A stretch of 64,000 nt of DNA from Rhodocyclaceae bacterium (lineage in GTDB: Bacteria > Pseudomonadota > Gammaproteobacteria > Burkholderiales > Rhodocyclaceae), in the NCBI GenBank assembly GCA_020445745.1, contig JAGRGB010000090.1:1-64000 (forward strand), written 5' to 3'. Within the stretch, counting starts at the first letter, position 1; the number at the start of each line of letters is the position of its first letter. The position numbers and the translations under genes are program-made. The notes below the pieces were generated by a model. That model made no database searches. It was not told the DNA's origin and saw nothing but the letters and a program-made list of their open reading frames with translations. Positions 5,593-64,000 of the stretch are shown here, piece by piece.

Positions 5593-5600
5593 ACGGCCGA

Positions 5601-7134: not shown

Positions 7135-7233
7135 TTCCTGCCGGCGCTCGGTGGCGACTGCCTGCCAAGGCAGTTGTCGGGGTACCTCCGGTGCGAGATG
7201 ATATCGTCGGCGATAGTTGCAAGAGGGCCTGAC

Positions 7234-7500
7234 ATGGAGATGAAACCGATCCATTCGGGGCGCCTGCGGGCCGCGGGCTATGATCGCGCCACCCGCACCC
7301 TGCGGGTCGAGCTCGACGACGGCACGCTGTTGGATCATGCCGGCGTCGGCGAGGAAACCTGGCGCAGGCTTGCCAGCTCGGGTTCCGCATGGAGTTACTA
7401 CCGCGACAACGTCGAGGAGGAATTCACCGCGCGGCGGGCATCGGCCGAAGCCAAGCAGGCCACCGGCAACCCACTCGACGCGCTGTTCCGCAAGGACTGA
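7234..7500 (+). CDS. KTSC-domain small protein
   Basis: An 88-residue protein from ATG 7234 with AGAGGG as a possible ribosome-binding site. The pattern GYDRATRTLRVELDDGTLLDH, then WRRLASSGSAWSYYRDNVEEEF, matches the KTSC domain, where the last Ser/Tyr-rich part is conserved. KTSC proteins are small and often linked to nucleic-acid enzymes; no partner is seen here. It is convergent with the hypX gene. Confidence 0.65.
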   Translation: MEMKPIHSGRLRAAGYDRATRTLRVELDDGTLLDHAGVGEETWRRLASSGSAWSYYRDNVEEEFTARRASAEAKQATGNPLDALFRKD

Positions 7501-7645
7501 CCGGCGTCGCGACCGGTCGATCCCGTTCCTCGATGCCGCCCCGCGGCGGGGGGCGATCGGCGATCTGCAAGCGACGCACCGAGCGCCGGCCGCGACGCGT
7601 GGCTGCCGTCGGCCTCGAGCGGCGCCGTCGGCGACTGTTTCGCCG

Positions 7646-10437: not shown

Positions 10438-10476
10438 CGGCTGACGGTCGCCATGGCTGATCGGCCGCGCCCTGCC

Positions 10477-11616
10477 TCAGGCCGCCGCCACCGGCAGATC
10501 CCGGAAGCGTCCGAACTTGTAGTGGGCCGCACAGGCACCCTCGGGACTCACCATGCACGAGCCCATCGGATTGTCGGGCGTACACGCGGTGCCGAAGATC
10601 CCACACTCGCTCGGCTTCTTGACGCCGCGCAGGATCGCACCGCATTCGCAGGCCTTGTTGTCCGGCACGCGGACGTAGTCGAGCCCGAAGCGCCCCTCGG
10701 CATCGAACTCGGCAAAGGACTTGCGGATCCGCAGGGCCGAATACGGCACCACGCCCAGTCCGCGCCATTCGAAGCTGCGGCGCAGTTCGAAGACCTCGGA
10801 AACCAGCGCCTGGGCCTTCAGGTTGCCGTCCTCGGTGACCGCTCGCGTGAACTCGTTCTCCACCGCGGCGCGCCCCTGGTTCACCTGGCGGACCAGCATG
10901 CGCACCGCCTGCATCACGTCGAGCGGTTCGAAACCCGCGATCACCACCGGCTTGCGGTACTCCTCGGCAAAGAACCGATAGGGACGCGTTCCGATCACCG
11001 TGGACACGTGGGCAGGTCCGATGAAGCCGTCGAGCGCCAAGCTTCCGAGCTCGCGCACTTCCGGCGACTCGAGGATGCTGCTGATCGCCGACGGTGTCAG
11101 CACGTGATTGCACAGCACGCTGAAATTGTCGAGGCCGAGGGCCTTCGCCTGTCGGATCACCAGCGCGGTGGGCGGCGTCGTGGTTTCGAAGCCGATCGCG
11201 AAGAACACCACCTGCCTCCCGGGCGACCGGCGCGCCAGCGCGAGGGCGTCCGCCGCCGAGTAGAGCATGCGGATGTCGGCACCACGCGCCTTGGCCTCTT
11301 GCATCGACAGGCCGCCGGAGGCCGGCACCCGCAGACAGTCGCCGTAGCTCAGGACCGTGACGTCGGCTTCCAGCGCCAGCCGGATCGCCATGTCGATGCG
11401 TCCGATCGGCAGCACGCACACCGGGCAGCCGGGACCGTGAATGATCTGCAGGTTGCCGGGCAGCAGATCGGTGACGCCATAGCGCGAGACTGCATGGGTA
11501 TGACCGCCGCAGAACGCCATCAACGCATATTGCCGATCGCGATCCACCTCGGCGTGGATCGCCGCCGCCAGCTTCCGCGCCAGCGCGCCGTCGCGGAATT
11601 CATCGACGTACTTCAC
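10477..11616 (-). CDS. hypD: Hydrogenase maturation protein HypD
   Basis: A 379-residue [4Fe-4S] protein with the diagnostic motifs CGGHTHA (near 36), GPGCPVCVLP (near 67) and the Cys-rich C-terminal cluster region (ACECGAILRG, ECGIFG, GSCMVSPEGACAAH). HypD receives cyanide from HypE and assembles Fe(CN)2CO with HypC. Its ATG overlaps the hypC stop as ATGA, suggesting translational coupling of these two partners. Confidence 0.96.
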   Translation of the reverse strand: MKYVDEFRDGALARKLAAAIHAEVDRDRQYALMAFCGGHTHAVSRYGVTDLLPGNLQIIHGPGCPVCVLPIGRIDMAIRLALEADVTVLSYGDCLRVPASGGLSMQEAKARGADIRMLYSAADALALARRSPGRQVVFFAIGFETTTPPTALVIRQAKALGLDNFSVLCNHVLTPSAISSILESPEVRELGSLALDGFIGPAHVSTVIGTRPYRFFAEEYRKPVVIAGFEPLDVMQAVRMLVRQVNQGRAAVENEFTRAVTEDGNLKAQALVSEVFELRRSFEWRGLGVVPYSALRIRKSFAEFDAEGRFGLDYVRVPDNKACECGAILRGVKKPSECGIFGTACTPDNPMGSCMVSPEGACAAHYKFGRFRDLPVAAA

Positions 11617-42357: not shown

Positions 42358-45300
42358 TCAGCGGGCCTGGAAGCGTCTCATCGCGAATCCGTAGATCAGC
42401 GGAATCACGAACAGCGTCAGCACAGTCGAGAATCCCAGGCCCCATACGATGCTGGCCGCCACCGGACCCCACATCAGCGACTTGCCGCCGAGCCCGACGG
42501 CCAGCGAAAACAGGCCGCCGATGGTCGTCGCCGAGGTGATCAGGATCGGCACCACGCGCCGCCGGGCCGCGTACAGGATCGCATGCAGCACGCTCATGCC
42601 GCCGCGCAGCCGCTCGTTGGCGGCATCGATCAGGACGATCGCCGCATTCACCGAAATCCCGGTCAGCGCGATCACGCCATACAGCGTGTACAGGGACATC
42701 GGATTGCCCGATACCAGCAGCCCAAGCACGACGCCGGTGAAGGCCAGCGGCACCGTGACGAGAATGATCAGCGGCTGGAAATAGCTGCGGAACTGGGTGG
42801 CCAGGATCAGGTAGATCAGCCCGATGCCGAGCCCGAACAGCCTGGTCATCGCGTCGATGCTTTCCTGGATGTCGTCGAGTTCGCCTGAAAAGTCGAGCGA
42901 CGCAGCCGGATGGGCGCCCTGCAGGCCGGCCCAGGCGACCTTCAGCGCGTCATTGGCGGCGACCGTGTCGGTGAGCGCCTGATCGATGTCGGCTTCCACG
43001 GTGATCGCGCGCTTCAGCGCGTAGTGGCGAATGTATCCCTTGGCCAGCCGCGGTTCGGCATCCACCACGGCGGAAAGGGGGACGCTGCCACCGCCGGCGA
43101 CCGGCACCTGGCGCTGCAGGATGGCGCCGACATCCACCAGTGCCCCGGGTCGTGCGCGCACCACGACCTCGACCTTCTCGCCGCCATCGCGGGTGCTGGC
43201 GACCACCTCCCCTTCGCCGTAGAGGCGCAGCACCCGCGCCACCCGGCCGGCGTCCGCCCCGGCCAGCGCCAGCCGCTCGCGGTTCAGGCGCAGGCGGAGT
43301 TCGTGACGCCCCGGCGTGTCGTCGTCGCTGATGTTGCGCACGCCCTCGACGCGCCCCAACGCCTCGATCAGGTCGTCGGCAGCCGCCCGCAGGGCCGGGT
43401 AGTCGTCGGCCTTGACCTTGACGCTGATCGCCCGCGCGGTCGGTGGCCCGCCCTTGAGTTCGAGAAACGACACCCGCGCCCCGTCGCCGGCCTCCCGGGT
43501 GAGCGGTTCGAGCGCGTCGATGATCTGGGCGGTATCCCGCATTGCGCCGCGCCGTGGTTGCAGCGAGACCAGCACCTGGGCGTAGTGATCTCCGTACAGC
43601 GGTTCCGTCTCGGAGAACTTCAGGCCCGCATAGGCCGTGACCGAGCGCATCTCGCCTTGGGCCAGCTCGCGCCGCACGGCCGTCGCCACCCGGTCCGCCG
43701 CCGCCAGGGAGCGTTCCAGCACCACGCCGGGCGGCATGTCCACATTGACGTAGAACAGCCGGAACGAATCGAACGCGAAGAACTGCATGCGGACCAGCCC
43801 GCCAGTGACCGCGCCGCCGGCACCGACGACCAGCAGCAGGGCCACCACCAGTGCAGTCCGCGGCCAACGCATCACCCGCAGCAGCAGGCGCCCGTACAGC
43901 CGGCGCAGGCGCTGCGTCAGGCGCGCCCGTCGGCGCTGGCCGGCACCACCCCGGGCACCGGCCCGGGCGCGGATCGCCAGCACGTGCACCGGCAGCATCC
44001 AGAACGCCTCGGCCAGACTCACCGCCAGCGCCACCGTGACGACGAAGGGCACCACGAACATGAACTTGCCGAGGATTCCCGGCAGCAACATCAGCGGCAG
44101 GAATGCCGCCATCGTGGTCAGCACCGAACTGGTCACCGGCAGCCACACTTCGCGTACACCGTCGCGCACCGCCTGCACCGCCTCGGCGCCCCGGCTGAGA
44201 CGGTAATGGATGGCCTCGACGACCACCACCGCGTCATCGACCAGCATGCCGAGGGCGATCACGACGCCGAGCAGGACCGTGAGATTGAGCGTCGAGCCGC
44301 TCGCCGCCACCACCAGGAAGGTGCCCGCCAGCGAGAACGGCACGCCGACGCCGACCAGCACTGCCAGTCGCGGCCCGAGGAACAGCCAGCACGCCAGCAG
44401 CACCGCGAGCAGGCCGAGCAAGGCGTTGGATTCCATCACCGAGATCGCGCTGCGCGTCACGTAGGTCTGGTCGTCGAGCATCGTCAGCTGCAGCCCCTGA
44501 CCGGCCAATAGCGGTTGCTGGCTGTCGACGAAGCCCTTGAGCCGGTCCACCAGTTCAAGTGTATTGACGCGTGGCTGCTTGGTCACCGACAGCATCACGC
44601 TCGGCTGACCGTTGTAGCTGACCAGTTGGCTCGAGCGCTCGTGGCCGCGGCTGACCCGCGCCACCTCGCCCAGCGAGATCCGCCCCGAGTCGGTCGGAAT
44701 CGGCACCCGCGCCAGTTGCTGGGGATCCGGCGTCTTGCCCTCGAGGCGCACCAGCCATTCCTCGTCCTTCACCCGCACCCGCCCGGCGAGCGTGTTGCGG
44801 AACCACGCCGACACCGCGTCCGACACGCGGTCGGGCGACAGCCTGCGGGCTGCCAGCGCCGACGGGTCGAACTCGACGTGCAGTTCGGCATCGTCGAGGC
44901 CCGCGGCGATGACCTGGTCTACGCCGGGCAGGCGCTCCAGATCCTTCTTCATGCGGAACGCTGCTGCCCGCAGGTTCTCGCCGCCCGCCTCGCCGTGCAG
45001 GGCCAGGATCGCCGACGGGAAACCGTTCGAACTGGTGATCTCGACGACCCGGGGATCGTCCGCCTCCGGCGGCAGTTCGTCGGAGGCCTTGCTCTGGATC
45101 TCGCGGCGCAGATCGTTCACGCGCTTGTCGAACGCCGCATCCGACAATTCGTTGAATCGCACCAGGATCGAGGACACCGATTCGCGGCTGCTCGACGACA
45201 CGAACTTGACGTCCTTGACGCGGGCGATCGCATCCTCGAGCGGAGCGGTCACCTCGTGCTCTACGTCCTCGGCCGAGGCACCGGGCAATACCGTCAGGAT

Positions 45301-45438
45301 GCTGACCCAGTTGAAATTGATCTCCGGGTCCTGGGCCCGGGGCATGGTCAGATAGCTGACCAGGCCGCCGACGAGCACCAGCGCGAACGCGATGTTGGCC
45401 AGCGGATGGTTGTCCAGCAGGCGATCGTAGAACCTCAT
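42358..45438 (-). CDS. RND-family efflux transporter, inner-membrane permease
   Basis: The protein has 1026 residues from ATG 45438, the normal RND size. N-terminal TM1 (IAFALVLVGGLVSYL) is followed by two large periplasmic loops and twelve membrane segments in total. TM4 carries GMLVDDAVVVVEAI with the paired Asp of the proton relay. It would act with the adaptor encoded just upstream. No TolC-like outer-membrane gene is in the window. The substrate cannot be predicted. Confidence 0.92.
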   Translation of the reverse strand: MRFYDRLLDNHPLANIAFALVLVGGLVSYLTMPRAQDPEINFNWVSILTVLPGASAEDVEHEVTAPLEDAIARVKDVKFVSSSSRESVSSILVRFNELSDAAFDKRVNDLRREIQSKASDELPPEADDPRVVEITSSNGFPSAILALHGEAGGENLRAAAFRMKKDLERLPGVDQVIAAGLDDAELHVEFDPSALAARRLSPDRVSDAVSAWFRNTLAGRVRVKDEEWLVRLEGKTPDPQQLARVPIPTDSGRISLGEVARVSRGHERSSQLVSYNGQPSVMLSVTKQPRVNTLELVDRLKGFVDSQQPLLAGQGLQLTMLDDQTYVTRSAISVMESNALLGLLAVLLACWLFLGPRLAVLVGVGVPFSLAGTFLVVAASGSTLNLTVLLGVVIALGMLVDDAVVVVEAIHYRLSRGAEAVQAVRDGVREVWLPVTSSVLTTMAAFLPLMLLPGILGKFMFVVPFVVTVALAVSLAEAFWMLPVHVLAIRARAGARGGAGQRRRARLTQRLRRLYGRLLLRVMRWPRTALVVALLLVVGAGGAVTGGLVRMQFFAFDSFRLFYVNVDMPPGVVLERSLAAADRVATAVRRELAQGEMRSVTAYAGLKFSETEPLYGDHYAQVLVSLQPRRGAMRDTAQIIDALEPLTREAGDGARVSFLELKGGPPTARAISVKVKADDYPALRAAADDLIEALGRVEGVRNISDDDTPGRHELRLRLNRERLALAGADAGRVARVLRLYGEGEVVASTRDGGEKVEVVVRARPGALVDVGAILQRQVPVAGGGSVPLSAVVDAEPRLAKGYIRHYALKRAITVEADIDQALTDTVAANDALKVAWAGLQGAHPAASLDFSGELDDIQESIDAMTRLFGLGIGLIYLILATQFRSYFQPLIILVTVPLAFTGVVLGLLVSGNPMSLYTLYGVIALTGISVNAAIVLIDAANERLRGGMSVLHAILYAARRRVVPILITSATTIGGLFSLAVGLGGKSLMWGPVAASIVWGLGFSTVLTLFVIPLIYGFAMRRFQAR

Positions 45439-45508
45439 CGCCGGGCCCCGCCGTAGCCGCGCCCGCGCCAACCGGGCACTCGGTAGCGGATCCCTGGTGC
45501 GATCACGT

Positions 45509-46489
45509 TCATCGCCCGCGCGCCGATTCCAGGCCGAGACGCCCCTCGTCGACCACCTCGGTGGTCAACGGCCAATCGACCGCGGCCGGACGCCCGAACT
45601 CGGCGCCGTCGATCGGCACGAATACCGGCTCGCCGGCTTCGATGACGAAAGCGCCGAGGTGGCCGCCGCGCAGTTGCAGGAAGCCCGCCGGCAGGTGGGG
45701 CAACGGCGAGCGCCACCGCAACTCTCCGGCCAGGCCGGGCGGCAGGCCTTCGTCGCCGCGGAGTACTACTTCCCGCGTCTGCCCTTCCGTATCGACGACT
45801 CCGGACACGCGGACGATGCGGACTTCACGCTCGCGCCCACCGGCGGCCAGCAGCAGGCGCTCGGCGGCCCTCAATTCGGCGAGTTGGGCGATCGGCACGG
45901 CGGCCCGGATCTCGGCCTGATCGGTGGCGGCGAGGATCAGCAGCGCAGTGCCCGGTGCGGCCAGTTCACCGACGCTGGCCAGGCGCTCGCGCACGACGCC
46001 GTCGAACGGCGCACGAATCGTCGTGCGCGCGAGTTCCAGCTGCGCCGCGGCCAGCGCCTGCACGGCCGCCTCGCGCTCGGCCGACAGCACTTCGAGTTCG
46101 GTCCGCTGGACCTTCAGCGCGTCATCGCTGACGAAGTTCTCGTCGGCCAGGCGTTCGGAGCGCGCAAGCTGCGATTCGGCCAGCCGGATCCGCTTGTCCA
46201 CCAGGCTCAGCGCGGCCCGGGCGCGACGCACCTCGATGCGGTGGGAGCGATCGTCGAGGTGCGCCAGCACCGCTCCCTCGTCGATCGCCTGACCGACCCT
46301 CGCCGCCAACTCCTCGATGCGCCCGGCGACTTCCGCCGATATGCGCGCTTCATCGCGGGCATGTACCGTCGCCGGCACACTGTAGCCGGGGTAGGCCGCC
46401 AGCTCCGCCAACGGCCGGCTGCTCCACCCACCAGCATATGCCGCGCTGCTCACCAACAACAGGATCGTGACCAGTGACTTCACCGTCAT
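45509..46489 (-). CDS. RND efflux periplasmic adaptor (HlyD-like membrane-fusion protein)
   Basis: The protein has 326 residues from ATG 46489 with GAGG upstream. After a signal peptide (LLVSSAAYA) the barrel-sandwich/lipoyl halves (ISAEVAGRIEELAARVGQAIDEG and IRAPFDGVVRERLASVGE) flank a short alpha-helical hairpin. The RND permease follows in the same operon, 70 bp on. There is no lipobox. Confidence 0.9.
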   Translation of the reverse strand: MTVKSLVTILLLVSSAAYAGGWSSRPLAELAAYPGYSVPATVHARDEARISAEVAGRIEELAARVGQAIDEGAVLAHLDDRSHRIEVRRARAALSLVDKRIRLAESQLARSERLADENFVSDDALKVQRTELEVLSAEREAAVQALAAAQLELARTTIRAPFDGVVRERLASVGELAAPGTALLILAATDQAEIRAAVPIAQLAELRAAERLLLAAGGREREVRIVRVSGVVDTEGQTREVVLRGDEGLPPGLAGELRWRSPLPHLPAGFLQLRGGHLGAFVIEAGEPVFVPIDGAEFGRPAAVDWPLTTEVVDEGRLGLESARGR

Positions 46490-46721
46490 GCCACCTCGAC
46501 GAATGGACGACCGATGTCGCCGGATCAGGAAGCCGCGGCGCCAGTCCCGGCGCACCGGCGGCCCTTCCCTGTGACGTTCCGCCGCACCCCACGGGCCGGC
46601 AGACCACGCTCGATCAGTCGCGACTCCAATAGGCAAAGCTTGCCAGATTCTGCGGTCGGTCGCCCGCTGCGCGAACGACCAGCGGCGACACGATAAAGAA
46701 TTCGCCGGGGGAGCCGTTCCA

Positions 46722-48389
46722 ATGCTTGGCGGGCTCGACACCGCCCTCCGACGCATGGATATCGAGGAAATCATGAAGCGGCTCGCCGATACCCCGATCT
46801 GGTTGCGATTGACCGCCGCGGTCTGGCTGCTGCTGCTGATCGCCTGGGGATCATTCATCTATTGGGAGACTCGCGTCAGCCGCGAAATCGCGATCGATCA
46901 GTCCGAACTGTTTGCCGCCAGCCTGAGCGAGACCACAGTCGCCGGCCTGACCGGCATGATGATCAATGGCACCATCGGCCGTCGCCGGATGTTTCTCGAG
47001 CAGATCGAGCAACTGGATGCGGTCCGGGAACTGCGCGTCCTGCGCGCCCCCGCGGTATCCGAAGTTTTCGGACGCCCCGACGACGAACCGCGACCGGACG
47101 AGCTCGAACGCCGGGCGATGGACCGTGGCGAGGCCTGGCGAGGGGTCAGCGAGGAGGGCGGCACCCGCCATCTGCGGATGATATTTCCGATCCTCGCCCA
47201 GCAGGACTACCTCGGCAAGAATTGCCTGAGCTGCCATCAGGTACCGGCCGGCACTCCGCTGGGGGCGGTCAGCATGCGGATCACGCTGGATCGCGTCGAC
47301 GCCGCGGTGGCCAGGTTCCGGGACACCAGCATCCTGTTCTCGATCCTCGCCTCGCTCGGTGTGCTGCCGATCGTGTTCCTGTTCGTCCGCCGCTTCGTCA
47401 GCCGCCCACTCGACGGGATGGCCGAAGGCCTCACCGAACTGGCCCGCGGCGAGGGCGACCTGACCCGACGCCTTGCGATTGACGGCGAGGACGAGATCGG
47501 GCGGGTCGCGAGTCTGTTCAACCAGATGCTGGCGTCGATCGCGCACCTGGTCGAGGAGGTCGGCACTTCGGCCAACGCCATCGCCGGCGCCTCGCAGAGC
47601 CTCAGCAGCGACGCCCGCCAGCTGGCTGACGGTTCGACCGAGCAGCACAGCAGGGCAGCGGACGCCAAAGACACCGTCGATGGTCTGGTGGCCAGCGCCG
47701 ACAAGGTGGCCGAGGATGCCGGCAGCGTCAGCGAGCTGTCGCGGGAAAGCGAGTCCCGTGCCGCCGAAGGCCGCACCCGCGTCGACGGGCTGATCGACGA
47801 CGTCGGCCAGGTCGCGAACGCGGTCAGCGAGATCGGCGACTCGGTACGCAGCTTCGTCGATGCCGCGGGCCAGATATCGGCGATGACGCAGGAAGTTCGC
47901 GAGATTGCCGATCAGACCAATCTGCTCGCCCTGAACGCGGCGATCGAGGCCGCCCGCGCCGGAGAACACGGTCGCGGATTTGCAGTGGTTGCCGACGAGG
48001 TCCGCAGGCTCGCCGAGAAATCCGCGAATTCGGCGTCCGCGATCGACGAAATCACGCGCTCGATAGGCGAGAAGGCGGCCGTCGTCGACCGCTCGCTGCA
48101 GTCGGGCGAGCAGCATCTCGAGCAGAGTCGCGGTGCCGCCGGGGAGGTCTCATCGGTGCTGGCCGGTGCGGTCGACACGGTGGTCGCCGTGCGCGCGGGC
48201 CTCGACAGGATCACCGGCGAGACCGAGCAGCAACGTCGCGGTGGCCACCTCGTGCGCGACAGCATGACCGCCATCGAGCAGATGGCGAGCGCCAACCAGA
48301 GCGCGGTGATGCGTACCGCGAAAGGCGCCGGCCAACTGGACGAACTGGCCCGGCGGCTGCAGCAGCGCGTTTCGCGCTTCCGCGTCTAG
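46722..48389 (+). CDS. Methyl-accepting chemotaxis protein with periplasmic c-type haem motif
   Basis: The protein has 555 residues from ATG 46722. TM1 about 30-48, periplasmic DUF3365-like sensor about 50-200 with CLSCH haem motif at 168-172, TM2 about 203-223, HAMP and signalling domain. The hairpin tip [20 protein letters not shown] and [14 protein letters not shown] are intact. A haem-bearing sensor suggests aerotaxis, redox or NO sensing, by inference. It diverges from the RND operon. Confidence 0.92.
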
Positions 48390-48411
48390 TCGTGCTCGCC
48401 GGGCAGGCCGC

Positions 48412-49737
48412 TCAGCGCCTCTCGGGACCCGCGTCGACCGGGATCGTGATCGTCACGCACAACCCGCCGCCCTCGACATTGACCGCCGACACCCGGCCGC
48501 CTTGGGCGGCTACCGCGCGGCGGGCGATGGCGAGACCGAGCCCGAAGCCCTCGGCACCGGCGCCGGCACTGCGGTAGAAGGGCTCGAAGATCGCCTCCAG
48601 CTCGGCTGCCGGCACTCCCGGCCCGTGGTCCGCCACGCTCAGCACGAAGTTCCCGTCGTCCAGATGTGCCACCACCTCGACCCGGCCACCGACCGGCGAA
48701 AACTTGACCGCGTTTCGTGTCACGTTCTCGAACGCCCGCTGCAGGCGCGCGCCGTCGGCGACCAGGGCCGCCTGCCCGTCGCCCCGGAACACCAGCGTAC
48801 GGCCGGACACTTCCGCCTCGAACGCCGCGTCCTGGGCAACGCCGGCCGCCAGGTCGAACAGATCGAGCGCCTCCATCGGTGTATCGCCGGCACCGGAATC
48901 GAGCCTGGCCAGGGTAAGCAATTCGCCCACCAGGCGATCGAGCCGACCGGCCTCGCGCTCGACCCGCTCCATCAGCTCGAGGCTGCGCGCGGGATTCTGC
49001 CGCGCCAGCCCGATCGCGGCCTGCAGCCGTGCGAGAGGCGACCGCAGTTCATGGGAGACGTCGTGAAGCAGTCGTCGCTGGGCCGCCACCAGCGCCTGCA
49101 AACGGTTGGCCATGTGGTCGAAATCCTTGCCGAGATCGGTGATCTCGTCGCGCCAGCTGCCCATCCGCGCGCCCACCCGGGTATCGAGCCGTCCGTCGGC
49201 CATCGAGCCGAAGGCGCTGCGCAGCTTGCGCACCGGGCGCGCGAGATAGCCGGCCATGACGCCGCTGAAGGCCAGGCTGGCGAGCAGACCGGAGACCAGC
49301 GGCAGCCACGGCGACGGCGCACCCCGACCGCCGCGCCGTCGTTCGTGGCGTGGCGGGGCGACCGTCACCACCCGATACTCGGCACCGTCGGGTCCGCTCG
49401 TCGCGAGGGTGTCGCTGTCCAGCCCGTGCGCCCGGGCCTCGTCGGCGGACGGCACGCTGCGGCCGCGAATTTCGCGGCCGGCCGCGTCGACGACATAGAC
49501 GCGCGTGCGCGCCCCGCGGCCCTCCCATTCGTCCAGCATCGCGCGAACGGCTGCGGGTCCGCCATGGTGCAGTACCGCGGCGAACGAGCCGGCCACGAAG
49601 CCGCCCCGCCTGGCGCTGTCCTCGGCCGCGTCCAGGTCGACCTGCCGGTACAGCCAGACCGCAACGCCGACACCACCCGCGGCCAGCACCAGGCTCAGCC
49701 AGAAGGCGACGAACAGCTTCCAGAACAGGCGCCCCAC
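48412..49737 (-). CDS. CpxA-like sensor histidine kinase
   Basis: The protein has 441 residues from GTG 49737, 4 bp after the response-regulator stop. It begins VGRLFWKLFVAFW as CpxA-type kinases do. TM1 about 8-28, a periplasmic domain to about 150, TM2, HAMP, dimerisation/phosphoacceptor LLHDVSHELRSPL (His), then ATPase motifs DHGPGVP and GFGLGLAIARR. Sensing of envelope stress is inferred from the neighbouring Spy-like gene. Confidence 0.9.
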   Translation of the reverse strand: MGRLFWKLFVAFWLSLVLAAGGVGVAVWLYRQVDLDAAEDSARRGGFVAGSFAAVLHHGGPAAVRAMLDEWEGRGARTRVYVVDAAGREIRGRSVPSADEARAHGLDSDTLATSGPDGAEYRVVTVAPPRHERRRGGRGAPSPWLPLVSGLLASLAFSGVMAGYLARPVRKLRSAFGSMADGRLDTRVGARMGSWRDEITDLGKDFDHMANRLQALVAAQRRLLHDVSHELRSPLARLQAAIGLARQNPARSLELMERVEREAGRLDRLVGELLTLARLDSGAGDTPMEALDLFDLAAGVAQDAAFEAEVSGRTLVFRGDGQAALVADGARLQRAFENVTRNAVKFSPVGGRVEVVAHLDDGNFVLSVADHGPGVPAAELEAIFEPFYRSAGAGAEGFGLGLAIARRAVAAQGGRVSAVNVEGGGLCVTITIPVDAGPERR

Positions 49738-49741
49738 CGGG

Positions 49742-50428
49742 TCAGACCTTGACCAGCTGGTAGCCCTGGCCGCGCACCGTCTGGATCCACGACTGACCGT
49801 CCTCGCGCGGGCCGAGCTTGTGACGGATGCTGGAGACATGCACGTCGATGCTGCGGTCGAAGCGGGTCAACGGGCGGCCCAGGCCATGCTCGGACAGCTC
49901 GTCCTTGGCGACCACGTGGCCTGCCTTGCGAGCCAGCAACTCGAGCAGATTGAACTCGGTACTGGTCAGCTCCAGCGCCTGGCCCTGCCAGCGCGCCTCG
50001 CGACGCTCCGGCCACATCGTCAGCGGACCGGCCTGCACCGGGCCATCGTCCGCCTCGTCCGCGACGCCAGCGCTGCGCCGCAGGATGGCGCGGATCCGCG
50101 CGACCAGTTCGCGCGGCGTGCACGGCTTCGGCACATAGTCGTCGGCCCCCAGTTCGAGACCGACGATGCGATCCACGTCGTCGCCCCGCGCGGTCAGCAT
50201 GATCACCGGCATGCGGCTGCCCTGGCGGATCCGGCGCAGGGTCTCGACGCCGTTCATGCGCGGCATCATCACATCCAGCACCGCGATCGCGTAGGCGCCG
50301 CTCAGCGCCGCCTCGACACCGGCCTCGCCATCGTGTTCGGCGTGGATCTCGAAGCCTTCCTGCTGCAGGTACTCGGCCAGCATCGAGACCAGTTCGACAT
50401 CATCGTCCACGAGCAGCACCTTGCTCAT
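49742..50428 (-). CDS. CpxR/OmpR-family response regulator
   Basis: The protein has 228 residues from ATG 50428. Receiver domain with VDDD (acid pocket), VLDVMMP (phospho-Asp), LTARGDD and KPC (Lys). The winged-helix C-terminal domain has LTSTEFNLLELLAR and IDVHVSSIRHKLG. It forms a unit with the kinase and lies divergent from a CpxP/Spy-like gene with matching DNA boxes between them. Confidence 0.92.
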   Translation of the reverse strand: MSKVLLVDDDVELVSMLAEYLQQEGFEIHAEHDGEAGVEAALSGAYAIAVLDVMMPRMNGVETLRRIRQGSRMPVIMLTARGDDVDRIVGLELGADDYVPKPCTPRELVARIRAILRRSAGVADEADDGPVQAGPLTMWPERREARWQGQALELTSTEFNLLELLARKAGHVVAKDELSEHGLGRPLTRFDRSIDVHVSSIRHKLGPREDGQSWIQTVRGQGYQLVKV

Positions 50429-50506
50429 CGAACGCCCTCCTCGCGCTTGCAACTCGGTGATCCATCATACGGTCCACGCTCGCACGCACATCAGCATTTT
50501 CCACTC

Positions 50507-56910: not shown

Positions 56911-57772
56911 TTGCCGCCGCGAGACCGGCGATCTCGGCGACCTGGGCCTGGACCCGCCTGAGCATGCGCTCGAATTCGGCTCCGTCGATCTCGAACAGCG
57001 CCCCGACCTCCGCTGCGAGCGCCTCGGGGTCGGGCGCGATGCCGGCGAAGAGGCTGCCGAGATCGCCCGGAAACGCCTCCGTGACATCCGCGAGCCGGGC
57101 GAAATGCTCGGCCGTCGCCACCACGCTGGCCAGCGATGCCGGCGATGGCGGCAGCCGGTGGTGATCGCGAAACAACTCGACCAGTGCCCGTGGCAGCTTC
57201 CAGTAGGTCAGCAGCTCGCCGGTGATCTCGCCGTGGCCGCAGCCGAGCACGGAGGCCTCGAGCAGGTCGATCGTGGTCTCCTGGTCGATCGCCAGCGCTT
57301 CGAGGCGAGCCAGCACGCCGGGTTCGCGAAGCTCCGCGAACATGTAGCCGATGTCGTGCAGCAGACCGGCAAGATACGCCTTGCCGGGGTCGATGCCCTG
57401 CCGGCGCGCCAGTTCCGCGGCGACCACTGCGGTGGTCAGCGCGTGCCGCCACAGATGCATCCGCTGCTCTGGCCGCAGGCCCACCTCGAGCGGCTGCCCG
57501 ACCAGCGCCGCGGTACACAGCTGGATCGACCGGCGCAGGCCGATGCGCCTGATCGCCAGCGGCACGGTGCCGAAGCGCACCCGCGACAGGCCGAAGGCCG
57601 CCGAGTTGGCGGCGCCGATCAGCTTCGCGGCAAGCGGGGGTTCGCCATTGACCACATGCAGCAGATGCGACTCGGCATCGGCGTCCTCGATTTGCAGATC
57701 GAGCAGTTCGATCGCGTGCGGCGACAGCGACGGCAGCGCATCTATTGCGACAAGTACCCGGTTCTCGGCCAT
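56825..57772 (-). CDS. HDOD-domain protein with repeat-derived C-terminus
   Basis: A 315-residue protein. The HDOD core has AKLIGAANSAAFG, AGLLHDIGYMFAEL and LGCGHGEITGELL. The conserved part ends around residue 285. The last 30 or so residues (STPARPPDGGAHPPSG...) are translated from the intergenic repeat unit, so the original stop has probably been replaced by repeat sequence. It is the third HDOD gene in the window. Confidence 0.8.
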   Translation of the reverse strand: MAENRVLVAIDALPSLSPHAIELLDLQIEDADAESHLLHVVNGEPPLAAKLIGAANSAAFGLSRVRFGTVPLAIRRIGLRRSIQLCTAALVGQPLEVGLRPEQRMHLWRHALTTAVVAAELARRQGIDPGKAYLAGLLHDIGYMFAELREPGVLARLEALAIDQETTIDLLEASVLGCGHGEITGELLTYWKLPRALVELFRDHHRLPPSPASLASVVATAEHFARLADVTEAFPGDLGSLFAGIAPDPEALAAEVGALFEIDGAEFERMLRRVQAQVAEIAGLAAAMSTPARPPDGGAHPPSGRVSRSDGRAVQ

Positions 57773-57894
57773 ATTCCGGCGTAGCGTTGGTGTCCCAGTT
57801 GAACCCGGGTTTACGGCTGCAGCGGCCGGACCTGAAGCGTCATCGGCTGCGTGCCGGCCCTACAATGGGCGATCCCATACGGAGAGCCGAACCG

Positions 57895-58584
57895 ATGAGC
57901 GCAACCCCACCCGCCCTGCTTTCGTGCGTCGAGATCGAGACCGGCGAGTCACCCCGCCACGCCGTGATCTGGTTGCACGGCCTGGGGGCCGACGGCCACG
58001 ACTTCGAACCGATCGTCGGCGAGTTCGACACCGAGTTGCTGCCGCCACTGCGCTTCGTGTTTCCCCACGCACCGGCGCGGCCGGTGACGATCAACGGCGG
58101 CTTCGTGATGAGGGCATGGTACGACATCGTCTCGGCCGACTTTTCTGCGCGCCGCGAAGACCCGGCCGGGGTGCGCGAATCGGCGCTGCAGGTCGAGGCA
58201 CTGATCGCTCGCGAGAACGCGCGCGGCGTCGAAGACCATCACCTGATCCTCGCCGGCTTTTCCCAGGGCGGGGCGATCGCACTCCACACCGGCCTGCGTC
58301 ACCCCCGTCCACTGGCCGGCATCATGGCACTGTCGACCTATGTGCCGCTGGCCGACAGCTTGGCGGCCGAGGCGAACGACGCCAACCGCAAGGTGCCGAT
58401 CTTCCAGGCCCACGGCCGCTACGATGGTGTCATACCGCACGATTTCGGCAAGCAATCCGGCGCACTGCTGGAATCGATGGACTACCCCGTCGAGTGGCAC
58501 AGCTACCCGATGGAGCACGGGCTGTGCCTCGACGAGGTGCGCGACATCGAGGCCTGGATGTCGCGCTGCCTGTCCGGCCGCTAG
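57895..58584 (+). CDS. Carboxylesterase (alpha/beta hydrolase, EstB type)
   Basis: The protein has 229 residues from ATG 57895 with GGAGAG upstream. Catalytic triad: Ser in AGFSQGGAIAL, Asp in GRYDGVIP, His in MEHGLCLDE. The N-terminal oxyanion loop is IWLHGLGADGHDF. This is the type II carboxylesterase/acyl-protein thioesterase family. A TACAAT box at 57861-57866 may be its -10 element. Confidence 0.93.
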   Translation: MSATPPALLSCVEIETGESPRHAVIWLHGLGADGHDFEPIVGEFDTELLPPLRFVFPHAPARPVTINGGFVMRAWYDIVSADFSARREDPAGVRESALQVEALIARENARGVEDHHLILAGFSQGGAIALHTGLRHPRPLAGIMALSTYVPLADSLAAEANDANRKVPIFQAHGRYDGVIPHDFGKQSGALLESMDYPVEWHSYPMEHGLCLDEVRDIEAWMSRCLSGR

Positions 58585-58668
58585 TGGCCTGCCTGGTCAA
58601 TCAAGGGACATGACGAAGGTGATGCATCGGGCCTCGTGGCAAGGCGCGCGTCACAGCGATGGCTGGGC

Positions 58669-59349
58669 CTAGCGCACGGACGAGCAACGCCGCCACGGGG
58701 CGCGAGGCGCGCTTTCGTGTTCCGGCATTTGCGAAGCGCACCACCAGGATCGACCACGCAGCCGCAAGCCGAGCACGCCGAGACCGGCCAGCAGCATCAT
58801 CGCCGCCGGCGGCTCCGGCACCGCAGCCGCCACCAGACGGAAGGCAGCCGGCTCGAACAAGGTCCCTGCGCTGCCGACGGCCTGCAGCGTGCGGCCATCC
58901 CAGCTGCCCTCGTAGGCGAGCGGATTCGGCATCGACACGCAGGAGCAGATCTGGCCGGGCGGCGTCGGAAACGGCGTCGCCGACGAAAAATGCCCGGCGT
59001 CCAGCACCTCGGCCACCAGCGACTGCGCGAAGCTGCCGCGCCCCGCCGCGTCGATCAGGATGTCGGAGAAGCGGATCACGTCGTAGGCCGGCGTACCGAG
59101 CAGGTCGGCATCGACGTGGATCACCTCGACACGCAGCTTGCCGCTCAGTGCGTGCGTCGTCGGAACGGAGGGACCGCAATTGCCGGCGGAGTCGCAGACG
59201 GCGAACGCGGGCGTGATCGTGACCCAGCTCTGCGCCGGGTCCACGACGAGCCACGCCGGCGTCGCCGAGGCCAGCAACGGCAGCGACACGCCGAGAGCGA
59301 CTGCAAGCGCACGCAGCCAGCCGGCCGCAGCCCGTTCGAACGACATCAT
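58669..59349 (-). CDS. PEP-CTERM sorting domain protein
   Basis: The protein has 226 residues from ATG 59349 with GGAGG upstream. A signal peptide (LRALAVALGVSLPLLASA) precedes a beta-rich body. The C-terminus has the PEP-CTERM signal VPEPPAAMMLLAGLGVLGLR and a basic RLRGR. Normally the protein ends right there; here about 20 extra residues (WWCASQMPEHES...) follow. PEP-CTERM proteins are processed by an exosortase, which is not in the window. Confidence 0.75.
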   Translation of the reverse strand: MMSFERAAAGWLRALAVALGVSLPLLASATPAWLVVDPAQSWVTITPAFAVCDSAGNCGPSVPTTHALSGKLRVEVIHVDADLLGTPAYDVIRFSDILIDAAGRGSFAQSLVAEVLDAGHFSSATPFPTPPGQICSCVSMPNPLAYEGSWDGRTLQAVGSAGTLFEPAAFRLVAAAVPEPPAAMMLLAGLGVLGLRLRGRSWWCASQMPEHESAPRAPWRRCSSVR

Positions 59350-59562
59350 CGCGATCCCTCCGGAAAGTTCGCACCTGCATGCCGGAAGGCATGGGTAGCG
59401 CATTCTCGCCGATCCGCCGGACCGGCGCATATGACATGATCAATGATATTTCGCAATCCGCCGGACGCGCCCGATAGCGGCACCGGATCACCCGGATACC
59501 GCCATCGACCCGCCGCCAGCAGAGTAAGCTGCACACCCCATGGCAACGAATCGGGAGGCCCC

Positions 59563-59856
59563 ATGTGCCGCGTCCAACTCGTCAAACTGCTGAGCCTGCG
59601 CTGGTGGCTGGTGTTCCTGCTCGCCGGCTTCCTGTTCATGGCCTTCGGCGCCGTCTCCTACAACCTGTTCCGCTTGCTGCAGGCCAATATTTCGCTGTTC
59701 GCCGAGTACGGCGTGATGGTGATCGCCGAAGGCGCGCTGCAGCAACTCGTCGAACTCACCCTGCTGGGCTACGCAAGCCTGTTGCTGTGGCTCGGCTTCA
59801 AGGCATGCGAAGGCTGGCTGGTTGCGTCCCTGATGGATGAGCCGTTCCGTGAATAA
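59563..59856 (+). CDS. Small membrane protein
   Basis: The protein has 97 residues from ATG 59563 with GGGAGG upstream. Two hydrophobic stretches (WWLVFLLAGFLFMAFGAV and LTLLGYASLLLWLGFKACE) and a short C-terminus. No family was recognised. It precedes the bufferin-like cluster by 145 bp with its own stop. Confidence 0.55.
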   Translation: MCRVQLVKLLSLRWWLVFLLAGFLFMAFGAVSYNLFRLLQANISLFAEYGVMVIAEGALQQLVELTLLGYASLLLWLGFKACEGWLVASLMDEPFRE

Positions 59857-59898
59857 ATTCGCCCATGCGCTGTAAGTCCGCGAGACCCTGCGCGGTCT

Positions 59899-59916
59899 AG
59901 CAACACGAGCAACACG
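59899..59916. repeat. Tandem 9-bp direct repeat upstream of the bufferin-like precursor
   Basis: AGCAACACG occurs twice in direct succession (59899-59907 and 59908-59916), 85 bp before the DUF2282 gene start. Its position fits an operator or activator site for the cluster; no regulator is identified. Confidence 0.45.
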
Positions 59917-60001
59917 ATTTCGCCGGCAACCCAGCGGCGGCATCGAAGTCCGCTTCCGGCCTGTCGGCCGGCACCCCTGAAACCCGTACGGAGACTCAAC
60001 C

Positions 60002-60265
60002 ATGAACAAACGCCAGTTCCTCGTCGCCGCCGCCATCGCCGGCATCGCCGCTGCTGCCGCCAATCCCACCATGGCCGCCGATGAGGGCAAGGAGAAGTGC
60101 TTCGGCATCGCCAAGGCCGGCGCCAACGACTGCGCCAGCGCCACCGGCGGCCATGCCTGCGCCGGCCAGGCCAAGAAGGACAACGACCCGCACGACTGGA
60201 AGTTCGTCGCCAAGGGCACTTGCACCGAGATGGGCGGATCCCTCAAGGCCGGCGGCAAGGGCTGA
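60002..60265 (+). CDS. DUF2282 bufferin-like RiPP precursor peptide
   Basis: An 87-residue protein with GGAGA upstream. A signal peptide (about 1-25, [15 protein letters not shown]) precedes a short core with four Cys at 33, 44, 53 and 74, in [20 protein letters not shown] and KGTC. This is the DUF2282/BufA1 pattern. Such precursors are modified on Cys by the DUF692 enzyme and exported to bind copper or other metals. The following three genes complete the cluster. Confidence 0.85.
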
Positions 60266-60350
60266 CGAAGGCGTCCTCGGCGCGGCGCCCGGCGCGCCGC
60301 GCCGGGCCGCGGCCCTCGCCTTCCTCCCGGAACTGCTCCCGACACGCGAC

Positions 60351-61199
60351 ATGAACCCCACGACCAGACTGTCCGGCTACGGCATCGGCCTGCGCGGCTG
60401 CCACTATCGCGACTTTCTCGATCTCCGCCCGGCGGTGGATTGGATCGAGGTCCATAGCGAGAACTTCTTCGGCGACGGCGGCTGGGATCTGCACGTGCTC
60501 GACCGCCTTCGTGCCGACTATCCGGTGAGCCTGCACGGCGTCGGTCTCGGCATCGGGTCGGCTTCCGCCGAACACTTCGACGCTCATCTGACGTGCATCG
60601 CGCGGCTCGTCGCGCGCTTCGAACCGGCGCTGGTCTCGGAGCACCTGAGCTGGGCCGCGATTCCCGGACGGCACCTCAACGACCTGTTGCCGATGCCGCT
60701 GACCTTCGAGGCGCTCGACCTGGTCAGCGAACGCGTCGACCGGGCCCAGAGCCGGCTGGGCAGGCAGCTCCTGCTCGAGAACGTGTCTTCCCACCTGCGC
60801 TTCGCCGCCGACTGCCTGGAGGAGACCGAGTTTCTCGAGCGCCTGCGCCAACGCACCGGCTGTGGCCTGCTGCTCGACGTCAACAACCTCTACGTCAATC
60901 AGTGCAACCACGGCGAGGACGCCATCGCGGCGATGGCCGCGCTGCAGTCGGCGCCGGCCGAAATTCATCTCGCCGGCCACCTGGTGACCGAGGATTCGGT
61001 GGTCGACCACCACGGCGATCATGTCGCCGAGCCGGTATGGGCGCTGTACATGGCGGCAGTGCGTCGCTTCGGCGAGGTGCCGACGCTGATCGAATGGGAC
61101 ACCGACATCCCGGCGCTCGAAGTGCTGGTCGCCGAGGCCGACAAGGCGCGCGCCGCCGCGGCGCACGCCGTGGCAATGGGTGAGCTGTGCCATGGCTGA
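60351..61199 (+). CDS. DUF692 multinuclear non-haem iron oxidase (BufB-like)
   Basis: The protein has 282 residues from ATG 60351 (no obvious ribosome-binding site). TIM-barrel DUF692/MNIO family with predicted iron ligands in [45 protein letters not shown] and IEWDTDIP. These enzymes oxidise Cys residues of RiPP precursors. All key residues look intact. It is 85 bp from the precursor gene. Confidence 0.9.
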
Positions 61200-61983
61200 C
61201 GGTCTCGCGGCGATCCAGCGGCGCATGGCCGACGGCCTGCTCGATGGCGGCGCCGACCCGGTCGAGCTGTTTCGTGGCCCGCCGGCGGCCTGCGCGAGGC
61301 GCCTGGCACTGTACCGCGGCAATCTCACCGCCAACTGGCAGCGTGCCCTGGCGGGCGCCTACCCGGTCCTCGAAGCGCTGGTCGGCGAAGAGTTCTTCCG
61401 CGCGATGGCGCGGGAATACGGGCGCAGCCATGACTATCGGGACGGCGACCTGAATCGTTTCGGTGCCGCTCTCGCCGACTTCCTGGCCGGGTTCGAACCC
61501 CTCGCCGGCCATCCCTATATGCCCGATGTCGCACGCCTCGAATGGGCGCTTCATGTCGCCCATTACGGAGCCGACGAGGCGGCGATGTCGCTGGCCGAAC
61601 TGGCGGCGATCGCACCACAGTCACTGGTCGAAGCACGTGTCCATCTGCACCCCAACGTCGCGCTGATCGCCTCCCAGTGGGCGATCGGCCGCATCTGGCA
61701 GGCCCACCAGCCCGGAGCCGGCGTCACGCTGCCGTCCGATCCCCGCGGCACCAGCCGGCTGATCGTGTATCGCCCGCGCTGGCGCGCCGAATGTCGCGAC
61801 GCGGGAGCCGGCGAGTTCGCCGCCCTGCTGGCCCTGGCCAGCGGCGAATGCCTCGGCGACGCACTCGAGCAGGCCAGCGCCGCGCAGCCGGATTTCGACC
61901 CCGGCGACGCCGTGCCACGCTGGCTCGAAGAAGGGCTGTGGCTCGCCGCGACGCCCCCGACACGATACGGAGAACAACGATGA
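61192..61983 (+). CDS. DUF2063 partner protein (BufC-like)
   Basis: The protein has 263 residues from ATG 61192, overlapping the DUF692 stop by eight bases. Its N-terminal DUF2063 domain contains [18 protein letters not shown] and [14 protein letters not shown]. The family partners DUF692 enzymes and is thought to deliver the precursor via an RRE-like domain. The C-terminal domain is helical. Confidence 0.88.
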
Positions 61984-62441
61984 ATGCCGCGCTGCGCCTG
62001 CACCGCCTGACCACCGCCTTCGACCGGCCCTTGAGCGATTGGGGCGGATCCCTGCTGTCACTGGCAATACGACTCAGCGTGGGCTGGGACTTCTTCAAGT
62101 CCGGACTGACCAAGATCGGCGACTGGGACACCACCCTGTACCTGTTCGAGGAGGAATACCAGGTGCCGCTGCTGCCGCCGGAGCTGGCGGCGTGGATGGG
62201 CGCCGCCGGTGAACTGGTGCTGCCGCTGCTGCTGTTCGTCGGCCTGTTCTCCAGGCCCGCCGCGCTGGGATTGTTCATCCTCAACGCGACGGCGTTGATC
62301 TCCTACCCGGCGCTGTTCGAGTTCGAGTGCCCGGCCGCGGTGAAGGACCACTTCCACTGGGGCGCCCTGCTGCTGGTGATCACCGCGTTCGGTCCCGGCC
62401 GGCTGTCCCTCGATGCGCTGATCGCGTCACGCACCCGCTGA
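61980..62441 (+). CDS. DoxX-family membrane protein of the bufferin-like cluster
   Basis: The protein has 153 residues from ATG 61980, overlapping the previous stop (ATGA). Four hydrophobic segments, with the DoxX pattern LAIRLSVGWDFFKSGLTKI and LPLLLFVGLFSRPAALGL. DoxX proteins are regular members of DUF692/DUF2063/DUF2282 (gig/buf) operons, perhaps in redox or transport of the peptide or metal. It ends the operon. Confidence 0.88.
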   Translation: MNAALRLHRLTTAFDRPLSDWGGSLLSLAIRLSVGWDFFKSGLTKIGDWDTTLYLFEEEYQVPLLPPELAAWMGAAGELVLPLLLFVGLFSRPAALGLFILNATALISYPALFEFECPAAVKDHFHWGALLLVITAFGPGRLSLDALIASRTR

Positions 62442-62475
62442 CAGCCAGGCCGGGGACGGCACCGGCGGCCTCCGA

Positions 62476-62982
62476 TCAATCCACCGGCACCTGGATCGCC
62501 CGCGGCCGGCCGGGCTCGGCCTTCGGCAATTCGATGCGCAGCACGCCGCTGCGGTAGCTGGCTTTCGAGGCCTCGGCGCGAACCGCCACCGGCAGCGCCA
62601 CCGCCCTGCGGAAGCTGCCGTAGGCGCACTGCATGACCCGCCAGCGGCCGCTGCTGCTCTCGCGCTCGAAGCGTTTCTCACCCTGCACGACGAGGGTGTC
62701 GTCCTCGACCTGGATATCGAAATCCTCCTTGCTCATGCCCGGCACTTCGAGGCGGACGACGACGCGCTCGTCGTCCTCGAACACCTCGCCGCCGAGCATC
62801 GACCAGCTGCGGGTCGGCGTGAACAATCCGTCGTCCACCTCGTGCTCGGCCGGCAGACGGGTGTTCTCGTCGCTCGAGAATCGCGTCAAGGCGCTCGCCG
62901 CCGACTCGCGCAGGCGCTGCCAGCCGTCGGCCAGCGAGTGGCGCAGGTGGTCGATGCCGGTCCTGATGTCGTCGATCTTCAT
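62476..62982 (-). CDS. Hsp20/alpha-crystallin small heat-shock protein
   Basis: A 168-residue protein with a long charged N-terminus (about 1-60). The alpha-crystallin domain runs from FEDDERVVVRLEVPGMSKED to SGVLRIELPKAEP. It differs from the two other sHSPs by its N-terminal extension and the C-terminal PRAIQVPVD. It is the last of three sHSP genes on this strand, 30 bp after the second. Confidence 0.92.
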   Translation of the reverse strand: MKIDDIRTGIDHLRHSLADGWQRLRESAASALTRFSSDENTRLPAEHEVDDGLFTPTRSWSMLGGEVFEDDERVVVRLEVPGMSKEDFDIQVEDDTLVVQGEKRFERESSSGRWRVMQCAYGSFRRAVALPVAVRAEASKASYRSGVLRIELPKAEPGRPRAIQVPVD

Positions 62983-63012
62983 GACTGACTCCTTGCCAAC
63001 AGAAATGCTGCC

Positions 63013-63381
63013 TTACGCCACGTCGATGCGGATCCGCCGCGGCTGGGTCTGTTGCACGCGCGGAATGCGCAGTCGCAGCACACCATTGTCGAACGCCGCG
63101 CCGACCCGTTCCGCATCGAGTTCCTTCGACAGCGTGAACACGCGCCGGTACTTCAGCGACGGCAGTTCGCGGTGGGTGAGCTGCATGCCTTCCGGCGCCG
63201 GCAGCCGCACTTCGCCCTCGATGGTCAGCTGATCGGCCTCGATGTGCAGGTTCAGGCCGTCCTTCGGCACGCCCGGCAGATCCGCGATCAGCGTGATGCC
63301 GCCCGCATCCTCGGTGACGTCGACGGCCGGCGACATCGCCTCCTCGCGGGTGCCCGTGTTCTTGGTGTCCATTTCGTTCAT
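63013..63381 (-). CDS. Hsp20/alpha-crystallin small heat-shock protein
   Basis: The protein has 122 residues from ATG 63381, chosen for GAGGA upstream; an in-frame ATG at 63393 overlaps the previous stop as ATGA. The alpha-crystallin domain contains LIADLPGVPKDGLNLHIEAD and DNGVLRLRIPRVQ. Short termini suggest small oligomers or co-assembly with its neighbours. Confidence 0.92.
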   Translation of the reverse strand: MNEMDTKNTGTREEAMSPAVDVTEDAGGITLIADLPGVPKDGLNLHIEADQLTIEGEVRLPAPEGMQLTHRELPSLKYRRVFTLSKELDAERVGAAFDNGVLRLRIPRVQQTQPRRIRIDVA

Positions 63382-63389
63382 GTCGGTCC

Positions 63390-63830
63390 TCATTGCACGC
63401 TGATCCGCCGCGGCCGGCTGGCGGCGCGACGGGTGACTCGGATGTGCAGCACGCCGTCGCGGTAGGTCGCGGACACCGACTCGGGATCGGCGTCCTCGGG
63501 CAGGTTGACGACCCGCCGGAAGCGGCCGGCAAAGCGCTCGCCGATGTGCACGGTGGTTCGCGAATCCTCCGCCGGCAGCTCGGCCGGGCGCTCGCCACTG
63601 AGCGTCAGCACGCCGCGATCGAGGGTCAGCTCGATCGCCGCCGGATCGAGACCGGGCGCGAACGCGTAGATCTCCACCGACTCCGGCGTGCCGCCGACGT
63701 CGAGCGCCGGAAAGCGGCTTCCACCGCTGCCGCGGATGCTCGCCGGCTGTTCGAGCGGGTGGCCGCCGAAATCGCGCTGCAGGCGCTCGAGCTCGGCCAT
63801 CAGATCCCTCGGAAAAACGTTCCAGACCAT
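63390..63830 (-). CDS. Hsp20/alpha-crystallin small heat-shock protein, first of three
   Basis: A 146-residue protein beginning MVWNVFPRDLMAELERLQRD, with alpha-crystallin core VEIYAFAPGLDPAAIELTLD and YRDGVLHIRVTRRA. GGAGGGAACCCC lies just before the ATG. A consensus sigma-32 promoter lies 31 bp upstream. Together the three genes should produce a mixed sHSP response to heat. Confidence 0.92.
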   Translation of the reverse strand: MVWNVFPRDLMAELERLQRDFGGHPLEQPASIRGSGGSRFPALDVGGTPESVEIYAFAPGLDPAAIELTLDRGVLTLSGERPAELPAEDSRTTVHIGERFAGRFRRVVNLPEDADPESVSATYRDGVLHIRVTRRAASRPRRISVQ

Positions 63831-63860
63831 GGGGTTCCCTCCGCGTTGTCCATGTCGCCG

Positions 63861-63889
63861 ATATGGGGTGGGCCGTGGCGGCTTTCAAG
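63861..63889 (-). promoter_or_regulatory. Sigma-32 (RpoH) promoter of the sHSP operon
   Basis: Read on the minus strand: -35 CTTGAAA (63889-63883), 14-bp spacer, -10 CCCCATAT (63868-63861). Both hexamers match the RpoH consensus exactly. It reads into the three sHSP genes. Confidence 0.85.
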
Positions 63890-63891
63890 AC

Positions 63892-63920
63892 CTTGAGAGC
63901 CGGGCACGGTGGACCCATAT
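63892..63920 (+). promoter_or_regulatory. Sigma-32 (RpoH) promoter of the dnaJ/cbpA-like gene
   Basis: CTTGAGA (63892-63898), a 15-bp spacer and CCCATAT (63914-63920) resemble the RpoH consensus CTTGAAA/CCCCATNT. It lies 46 bp upstream of the TTG start of the DnaJ-domain gene. It is divergent from the sHSP promoter with only 2 bp between the two -35 elements. Confidence 0.7.
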
Positions 63921-63965
63921 TAGAAGAGAACGATGCATCGACCACCATTGCCGGGAGAGCCGACC

Positions 63966-64000
63966 TTGGAATACAGGGACTACTACCAGACGCTCGGGGT
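63966..64000 (+). CDS. DnaJ-domain protein, CbpA-like (partial, N-terminus)
   Basis: A frame from TTG 63966 reads MEYRDYYQTLG, the N-terminus of CbpA/DnaJ J-domains, and continues beyond the window. GGGAG lies about 12 bases upstream. Heat-shock control is predicted from the promoter at 63892-63920. Only 12 codons are visible, so the full identity is inferred. Confidence 0.65.
   Translation, partial: MEYRDYYQTLG

Follow-up and report, generated by a model that had tools for sequence, protein, structure and literature searches.

A probable bufferin-1 operon for copper sequestration in a Rhodocyclaceae-like bacterium

Gene content of the locus

In this study, which was based on a stretch of 64,000 nucleotides (nt) from contig JAGRGB010000090.1 of a Rhodocyclaceae bacterium (assembly GCA_020445745.1; the whole stretch is referred to as the window), we analysed a locus at positions 60002-62441 of the forward strand, which an initial annotation had described as a bufferin- or gig-type cluster of a DUF2282 precursor, a DUF692 enzyme, a DUF2063 partner and a DoxX protein. 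A reading of the open reading frames (ORFs) in the window sequence confirmed that four intact ORFs lie within these coordinates, all of them on the plus strand. The first gene, bufA1 (60002-60265), encodes the bufferin-1 precursor of 87 amino acids (aa), which matched the Pfam family DUF2282 (PF10048) with 83.4 bits (cut-off 22.4), and it is separated by a gap of 85 nt from bufB1 (60351-61199), which encodes the MNIO (DUF692) maturase of 282 aa (PF05114, MbnB_TglH_ChrH; 312.4 bits, cut-off 25). The gene of the DUF2063 partner, bufC1 (61192-61983; 263 aa, PME type 1; PF09836, 82.2 bits, cut-off 27.2), comes directly after that of the enzyme, and the order A-B-C is completed by bufD1 (61980-62441), which encodes a GigT-like membrane protein of the DoxX family (153 aa; PF07681, 62.6 bits, cut-off 23.6). 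The last three genes had been described as joined by overlaps of 4 to 8 nt, and the measured values, 8 nt between bufB1 and bufC1 and 4 nt between bufC1 and bufD1, agree with this when the ATG at 61192 is taken as the start of bufC1; an alternative GTG at 61180 is possible. Since all four Pfam scores are well over their cut-offs, the finding of these four genes together is far beyond chance.

The assignment to the bufferin or gig type also held, because BufB1 scored over the curated cut-off of the NCBIfam model NF050167 (MNIO_BufB, "MNIO family bufferin maturase"; 335.4 bits, cut-off 310) and the gene order is that of gigPABT and of CC3254-CC3257, which are discussed below. Membership of other systems of this superfamily was considered and rejected. 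BufB1 reached 205.8 bits against the HvfB equivalog cut-off of 360 (Hvf, oxazolin) and 57.3 bits against the MbnB equivalog cut-off of 325 (methanobactin), and it was also under the NCBIfam cut-offs of the ApyH and ChrH models. Similarly, BufA1 was not assigned to the Buf2 precursors (BufA2), which carry six or twelve cysteines, because it has only four and no match to NF050166 was found at E<=0.01.

Precursor, maturase and their relatives

Relatives were collected by a BufB search of genome contigs, in which 459 were confirmed and the best 80 were kept (loci L007-L086). The closest ones (L007 and L008) come from the Rhodocyclaceae metagenome-assembled genomes HKST-UBA162 and 163, which appear to be congeneric with the bacterium of the window and whose BufB proteins share 85% and 84% identity with BufB1. 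A precursor gene was located ahead of bufB in 78 of the 80 loci, while the two loci without it (L009 and L055) begin at a contig end near bufB. DoxX, which accompanies bufferin-1 operons often but not obligatorily, was found by a profile search in 38 of the 80 loci, some of which are cut off by contig ends. Among 41 genomes, i.e., the own genome and 40 relatives, DUF2282 was present in 24, and BufB was over its cut-off in 23 and detected at E<=0.001 in 28. A tblastn comparison of BufA1 with plasmids gave a match in 152 of 72,556 records, none of which reached a query coverage of 80%.

Additionally, bufB and bufC formed one continuous ORF in 54 of the 80 loci, were separate in 24 and were cut off or without an ORF in two; fusion was judged by the length of the ORF because the B and C profiles cross-match on long ORFs. 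The one-ORF arrangement was seen in many Massilia-, Duganella- and Janthinobacterium-type genomes (e.g., L014, 3905-5602), which suggests, a check for artefacts aside, that these are natural fusions of an MNIO enzyme and its partner.

The cysteines of BufA1, four in total, are located at residues 33, 44, 53 and 74, as had been indicated initially. By eye, the N-terminus has basic residues at its start, a hydrophobic segment and T-M-A ahead of residue 26, which was read as a probable Sec signal peptide that would be cleaved after residue 25. In an alignment of 82 precursors (the window, 78 loci, extra copies in L017 and L067, and a second precursor of the own genome on contig C31), all four cysteines were aligned in every row, with a spacing of 11/9/21 in 67 and of 11/7/21 in 15, although the rows had been gathered by their similarity to BufA1, which favours conservation. 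More than four cysteines were counted in 59 of the 82 precursor ORFs, some of which were extended upstream through the choice of the first start codon. The same pattern has been stated independently: Buf1 precursors have four conserved cysteines (PMC12452194; here and below, statements taken from publications refer to the parts of their text that were available). From these two lines of evidence it follows that the core is not special to this organism, as the initial annotation had proposed, and the idea of a novel core peptide was rejected, since its cysteine pattern is the one of the family.

The closest solved structure to BufB1 by sequence was 3bww, a DUF692 protein (E 2.1e-33), which is the MNIO of Histophilus somni with a di-iron site and 72.4% identity to HvfB (2026 preprint, PMC13419390). 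For BufC1, no solved structure related by sequence was found at E<=1. An alignment of 81 BufB sequences was composed of the window protein, the second copy of the own genome and 79 of the 80 relatives (L082 is without a complete ORF). Sixteen positions were counted in it, ten of which were taken as the metal site based on the motif, the alignment with 3bww and the HvfB residues N175, D242 and H244, HvfB itself not being one of the aligned sequences. What we take to be the ligands of MbnB were also used in picking these positions. H98, E143, D176, N178, N179, H206, D219, H221 and E248 were invariant in all 81 sequences, and H62 was present in 80, the remaining one having a gap. The other six positions were retained in 81 (E97), 81 (N144), 79 (H210), 62 (H220), 80 (D250) and 74 (D252) sequences. 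Judged on its residues, the metal site of BufB1 is complete and the enzyme gene is intact, which supports what had been claimed of this enzyme at the outset; the absence of the ligands had been named as an argument against the cluster, and all ten positions were found to be occupied.

These results also bear on whether the operon might be degenerate or uncoupled, i.e., whether, with the genes intact, the peptide leaves for the periplasm without being modified or the enzyme serves a different substrate, for example the C31 precursor. Since the genome also encodes another BufB/BufC pair and another DUF2282 precursor, cross-modification is possible. However, the ORFs are all intact and closely spaced, the two closest relatives retain them, and the ligand positions of BufB1 are complete; we regard such an uncoupling as very improbable indeed.

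Comparison with known systems and proposed function

The gigPABT operon of Cupriavidus metallidurans has the same order of four genes, GigA presumably being the DUF692 protein. GigP is a preprotein of 94 aa with a 22-aa leader and four cysteines, and the operon is induced by copper and gold (PMC10304878); gig operons are regarded as bufferin clusters (PMC12452194). One difference is that gigPABT lies divergently to rpoQ and a gene for an anti-sigma factor, whereas a sigma gene beside the operon was not noticed here, either in the ORFs from 57500 to 64000 or in the eight proteins scanned. Caulobacter CC3254-CC3257 likewise encode DUF2282, DUF692, DUF2063 and DoxX proteins in this order and by inference constitute the bufferin-1 operon of C. 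vibrioides. A site of the extracytoplasmic function (ECF) sigma factor type lies upstream of both operons, the one in the window being a candidate: the sigma-F site GTAACC-N16-CGAA precedes Caulobacter CC3254 and CC2907 (PMC3511200), while the sequence here is TGTAAG-N16-CGGTCTA. Gold and copper elicit a response from a Legionella operon that encodes these four domains (PMC5413113).

Other systems are more distant. HvfABC (oxazolin) and the fontiphorin system similarly use an MNIO with a DUF2063 partner on cysteine peptides, with 5-thiooxazoles as the product, but their precursors carry EGKCG repeats, whereas the one here is a DUF2282 protein. The methanobactin system MbnABC shares the MNIO superfamily, MbnB structures being distant matches to BufB1; it differs from the locus analysed here, which has a DUF2063-type partner and a DUF2282 precursor. 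Publications have already described four-cysteine precursors of the Buf1/DUF2282 type, the bufABC order with DoxX among the core genes, the modification of the peptide and the role in copper handling (PMC12452194, PMC13097082). The system is thus not undescribed, as had been supposed, and the operon is a fresh example of a described family and not a new kind of natural product.

A mechanism for the operon can be proposed, the steps of modification, export and copper binding being inferred from the characterised relatives. Transcription would probably begin at the ECF-sigma-type promoter about 100 nt upstream. BufC would hand the precursor to BufB in the cytoplasm, where BufB, with a mixed-valent di-iron centre, would oxidise the central Cys44 and Cys53 to 5-thiooxazoles with a loss of 4 H each. 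For HvfBC, the mixed-valent di-iron state depends on the partner protein (PMC13419390), and the 5-thiooxazole structure has been assigned for FonA and for the products of H. influenzae and N. gonorrhoeae (PMC13097082). The peptide would then be exported by Sec to the periplasm, with removal of the signal, and Cys33 and Cys74 would pair as a disulfide. This is in line with the Buf1 precursors, in which the two central cysteines are the targets of modification to thiooxazoles and the first and last form a disulfide (PMC12452194). For residues 26-87, the calculated monoisotopic mass is 6151.85 Da for the unmodified peptide, and it would fall to 6143.78 Da with two thiooxazoles and to 6141.77 Da with the disulfide in addition. 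The mature peptide, about residues 26-87, would sequester excess copper in the periplasm, and the DoxX protein may have an auxiliary role of an unspecified kind. Copper chelation by bufferins and better growth under copper stress have been reported (PMC12452194).

Based on the gene content, the family scores and these analogies, 60002-62441 is very probably a bufferin-1 operon (bufA1B1C1D1 or gigPABT) of a Rhodocyclaceae-like bacterium with a copper-sequestering product. Several observations weigh against this interpretation. BufC1 matched NF050145 (RiPP_RRE_HvfC) weakly, with 47.7 bits, under the cut-off of 142, and BufD1 matched the HvfX family model NF050144 with 50.3 bits, under the cut-off of 80; these closest NCBIfam models are named after the Hvf system. 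For BufA1, no NCBIfam match was found at E<=0.01, and a copper-resistance gene was not recognised next to the operon, where just eight neighbourhood proteins were scanned. Moreover, gigPABT contributes only modestly to copper resistance in Cupriavidus, where deletion of gig alone shifts the half-maximal inhibitory concentration of copper little, 580 vs 615 µM (PMC10304878). The peptide of a bufferin-type operon could also serve mainly against another metal or stress, such as gold, chromium and cadmium, or oxidative stress. A response to chromium and cadmium has been described for the Caulobacter sigma-F regulon, which includes two DUF2282-DUF692-DUF2063 operons (PMC3511200). The response to gold and, for induction, to chromium and cadmium is compatible with more than one physiological metal. 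A function mainly for another metal or stress is in our opinion improbable, and the product of the operon is most likely a periplasmic copper-sequestering bufferin.

Upstream region, neighbouring genes and the second locus

The candidate ECF-sigma-type promoter is located at 59871-59899 on the plus strand and ends 102 nt before the start codon of bufA1. It is conserved in the two closest relatives, and in the own genome a degenerate pattern is matched perfectly by this site and by one other. The latter match, on contig C97, was taken as chance, since a reading by eye of the adjoining ORFs showed no obvious gene for a sigma factor or a buf protein. The patterns were chosen after the upstream sequences had been inspected, three being counted first and four used in the shuffle test. 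A variant ending in GCGACTA (14 regions) or GGGTCTA (one) occurred in 15 of 79 upstream regions and never appeared when dinucleotides were shuffled in 50 rounds; a looser pattern was found in 34 of the 79 regions (shuffle mean 1.42, maximum 4). In the 41 genomes, 35 pattern matches were counted, and 11 of them were same-strand sites no more than 1.5 kb upstream of a DUF2282 or BufB match. Three of the 11 belong to the window and to the pair of relatives from which the pattern had been derived.

Other counts argue against a promoter. The pattern is not over-represented genome-wide, with 35 matches in the 41 genomes vs 81 for the control read backward (31 forward, 50 reverse). Most buf genes are without an exact match, and the exact site was the nearest one upstream for just six of 31 DUF2282 matches. 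Two genomes of the same genus, G002 and G004, have the precursor but no pattern match. In the regions upstream of the C31 bufA and of L010 and L013, none of the three patterns was matched. Only the position beside buf genes (11 of 35) is telling. An NrsF anti-sigma factor was not supported in the own genome, as its sole match reached 18.5 bits (cut-off 26.8); no further search for sigma factors was made. None of the publications listed by a literature search joins TGTAAG, a sigma factor and DUF692, and the site may still have been published. An ECF-type promoter candidate is found again ahead of certain buf genes of related genomes, which does not alter the kind of system, a known one, that the operon represents.

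The spacer between bufA1 and bufB1 contains a G+C-rich stem-loop (60266-60350, plus strand). The fold of 60263-60350 has an energy of -45.9 kcal/mol (z -1.30), and because 19 of 200 shuffles were as good, it is not clearly beyond what the composition gives. The corresponding values were z -0.54 (62/200) in L007, z -2.54 (1/200) in L008 and z -1.71 (7/200) after the C31 bufA, and these three hairpins differ in sequence. The spacer stem-loop could possibly act as a transcript stabiliser or as an attenuator or terminator.

Just upstream of bufA1, 59563-59856 encodes a small hydrophobic protein with no Pfam or NCBIfam match at E<=0.01, and a similar coding end was seen by eye upstream of bufA in L007 and L008. 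On the minus strand, a PEP-CTERM motif protein is encoded at 58669-59430 (22.7 bits, cut-off 20.7), and three consecutive small heat-shock-like ORFs (62476-63830) converge on the operon, the first being HSP20 by Pfam and the other two by eye. Further away, 42358-50452 (minus strand) was read by eye as a resistance-nodulation-division (RND) type efflux pump with a membrane-fusion protein, which adjoin a sensor kinase and a response regulator; the pump is possibly one for metal or drug efflux.

Profile matches also revealed a second, split bufferin-1 locus in the own genome (G000), on contig C31 (L087) at 4603-10912, whose two halves are on one strand. The first half (4603-6241) encodes a second BufB, with 392.2 bits against the bufferin model, and its DUF2063 partner. 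The second half lies 2.4 kb beyond this pair, and its genes are those of a DUF2282 precursor (8636-8929), of DoxX and of a pyridine-nucleotide-disulphide oxidoreductase (9515-10912). The stretch in between encodes, on the opposite strand, a DUF488 protein and a two-component system, the histidine kinase of which is accompanied by a response regulator that has a Trans_reg_C domain. A copper-type two-component system was unsupported here, as the best 25 of 84 families for the kinase and of 94 for the regulator were all below cut-off, heavy-metal models included. The order of the split locus is retained in a relative, G005 (contig C119), where a third DUF2282-type ORF with an N-terminal hydrophobic segment was observed 5 kb downstream (L106, 10056-11228); translation probably starts at a point within this ORF.

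In three genomes of the same genus that were looked at (G001, G004 and G005), a further BufB is found beside a precursor that was read by eye as the six-cysteine Buf2 type (L107, 3285-3635; L108, 4700-5029, minus strand; L109, 1881-2192, minus strand). The own genome had no NF050166 (BufA2) match over the cut-off of 60, the one weak match (23.7 bits) being the C31 DUF2282 precursor.

It is conceivable, although we hold it to be rather unlikely, that the two bufferin-1 systems are under different control, the window operon having the ECF-sigma-type promoter and the C31 locus being without that site and having the two-component system, and that their maturases possibly exchange precursors. If this were true, the C31 locus would link a bufferin to a redox enzyme and to a sensor of its own. 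A split locus with two-component genes between its halves, kept in one relative, could show how different bufferins in one cell are regulated, and it leaves the kind of system unchanged as well. The window itself contributes one well-supported bufferin-1 operon from the Rhodocyclaceae lineage, the core of which is not unique, as had been proposed, but that of its family.
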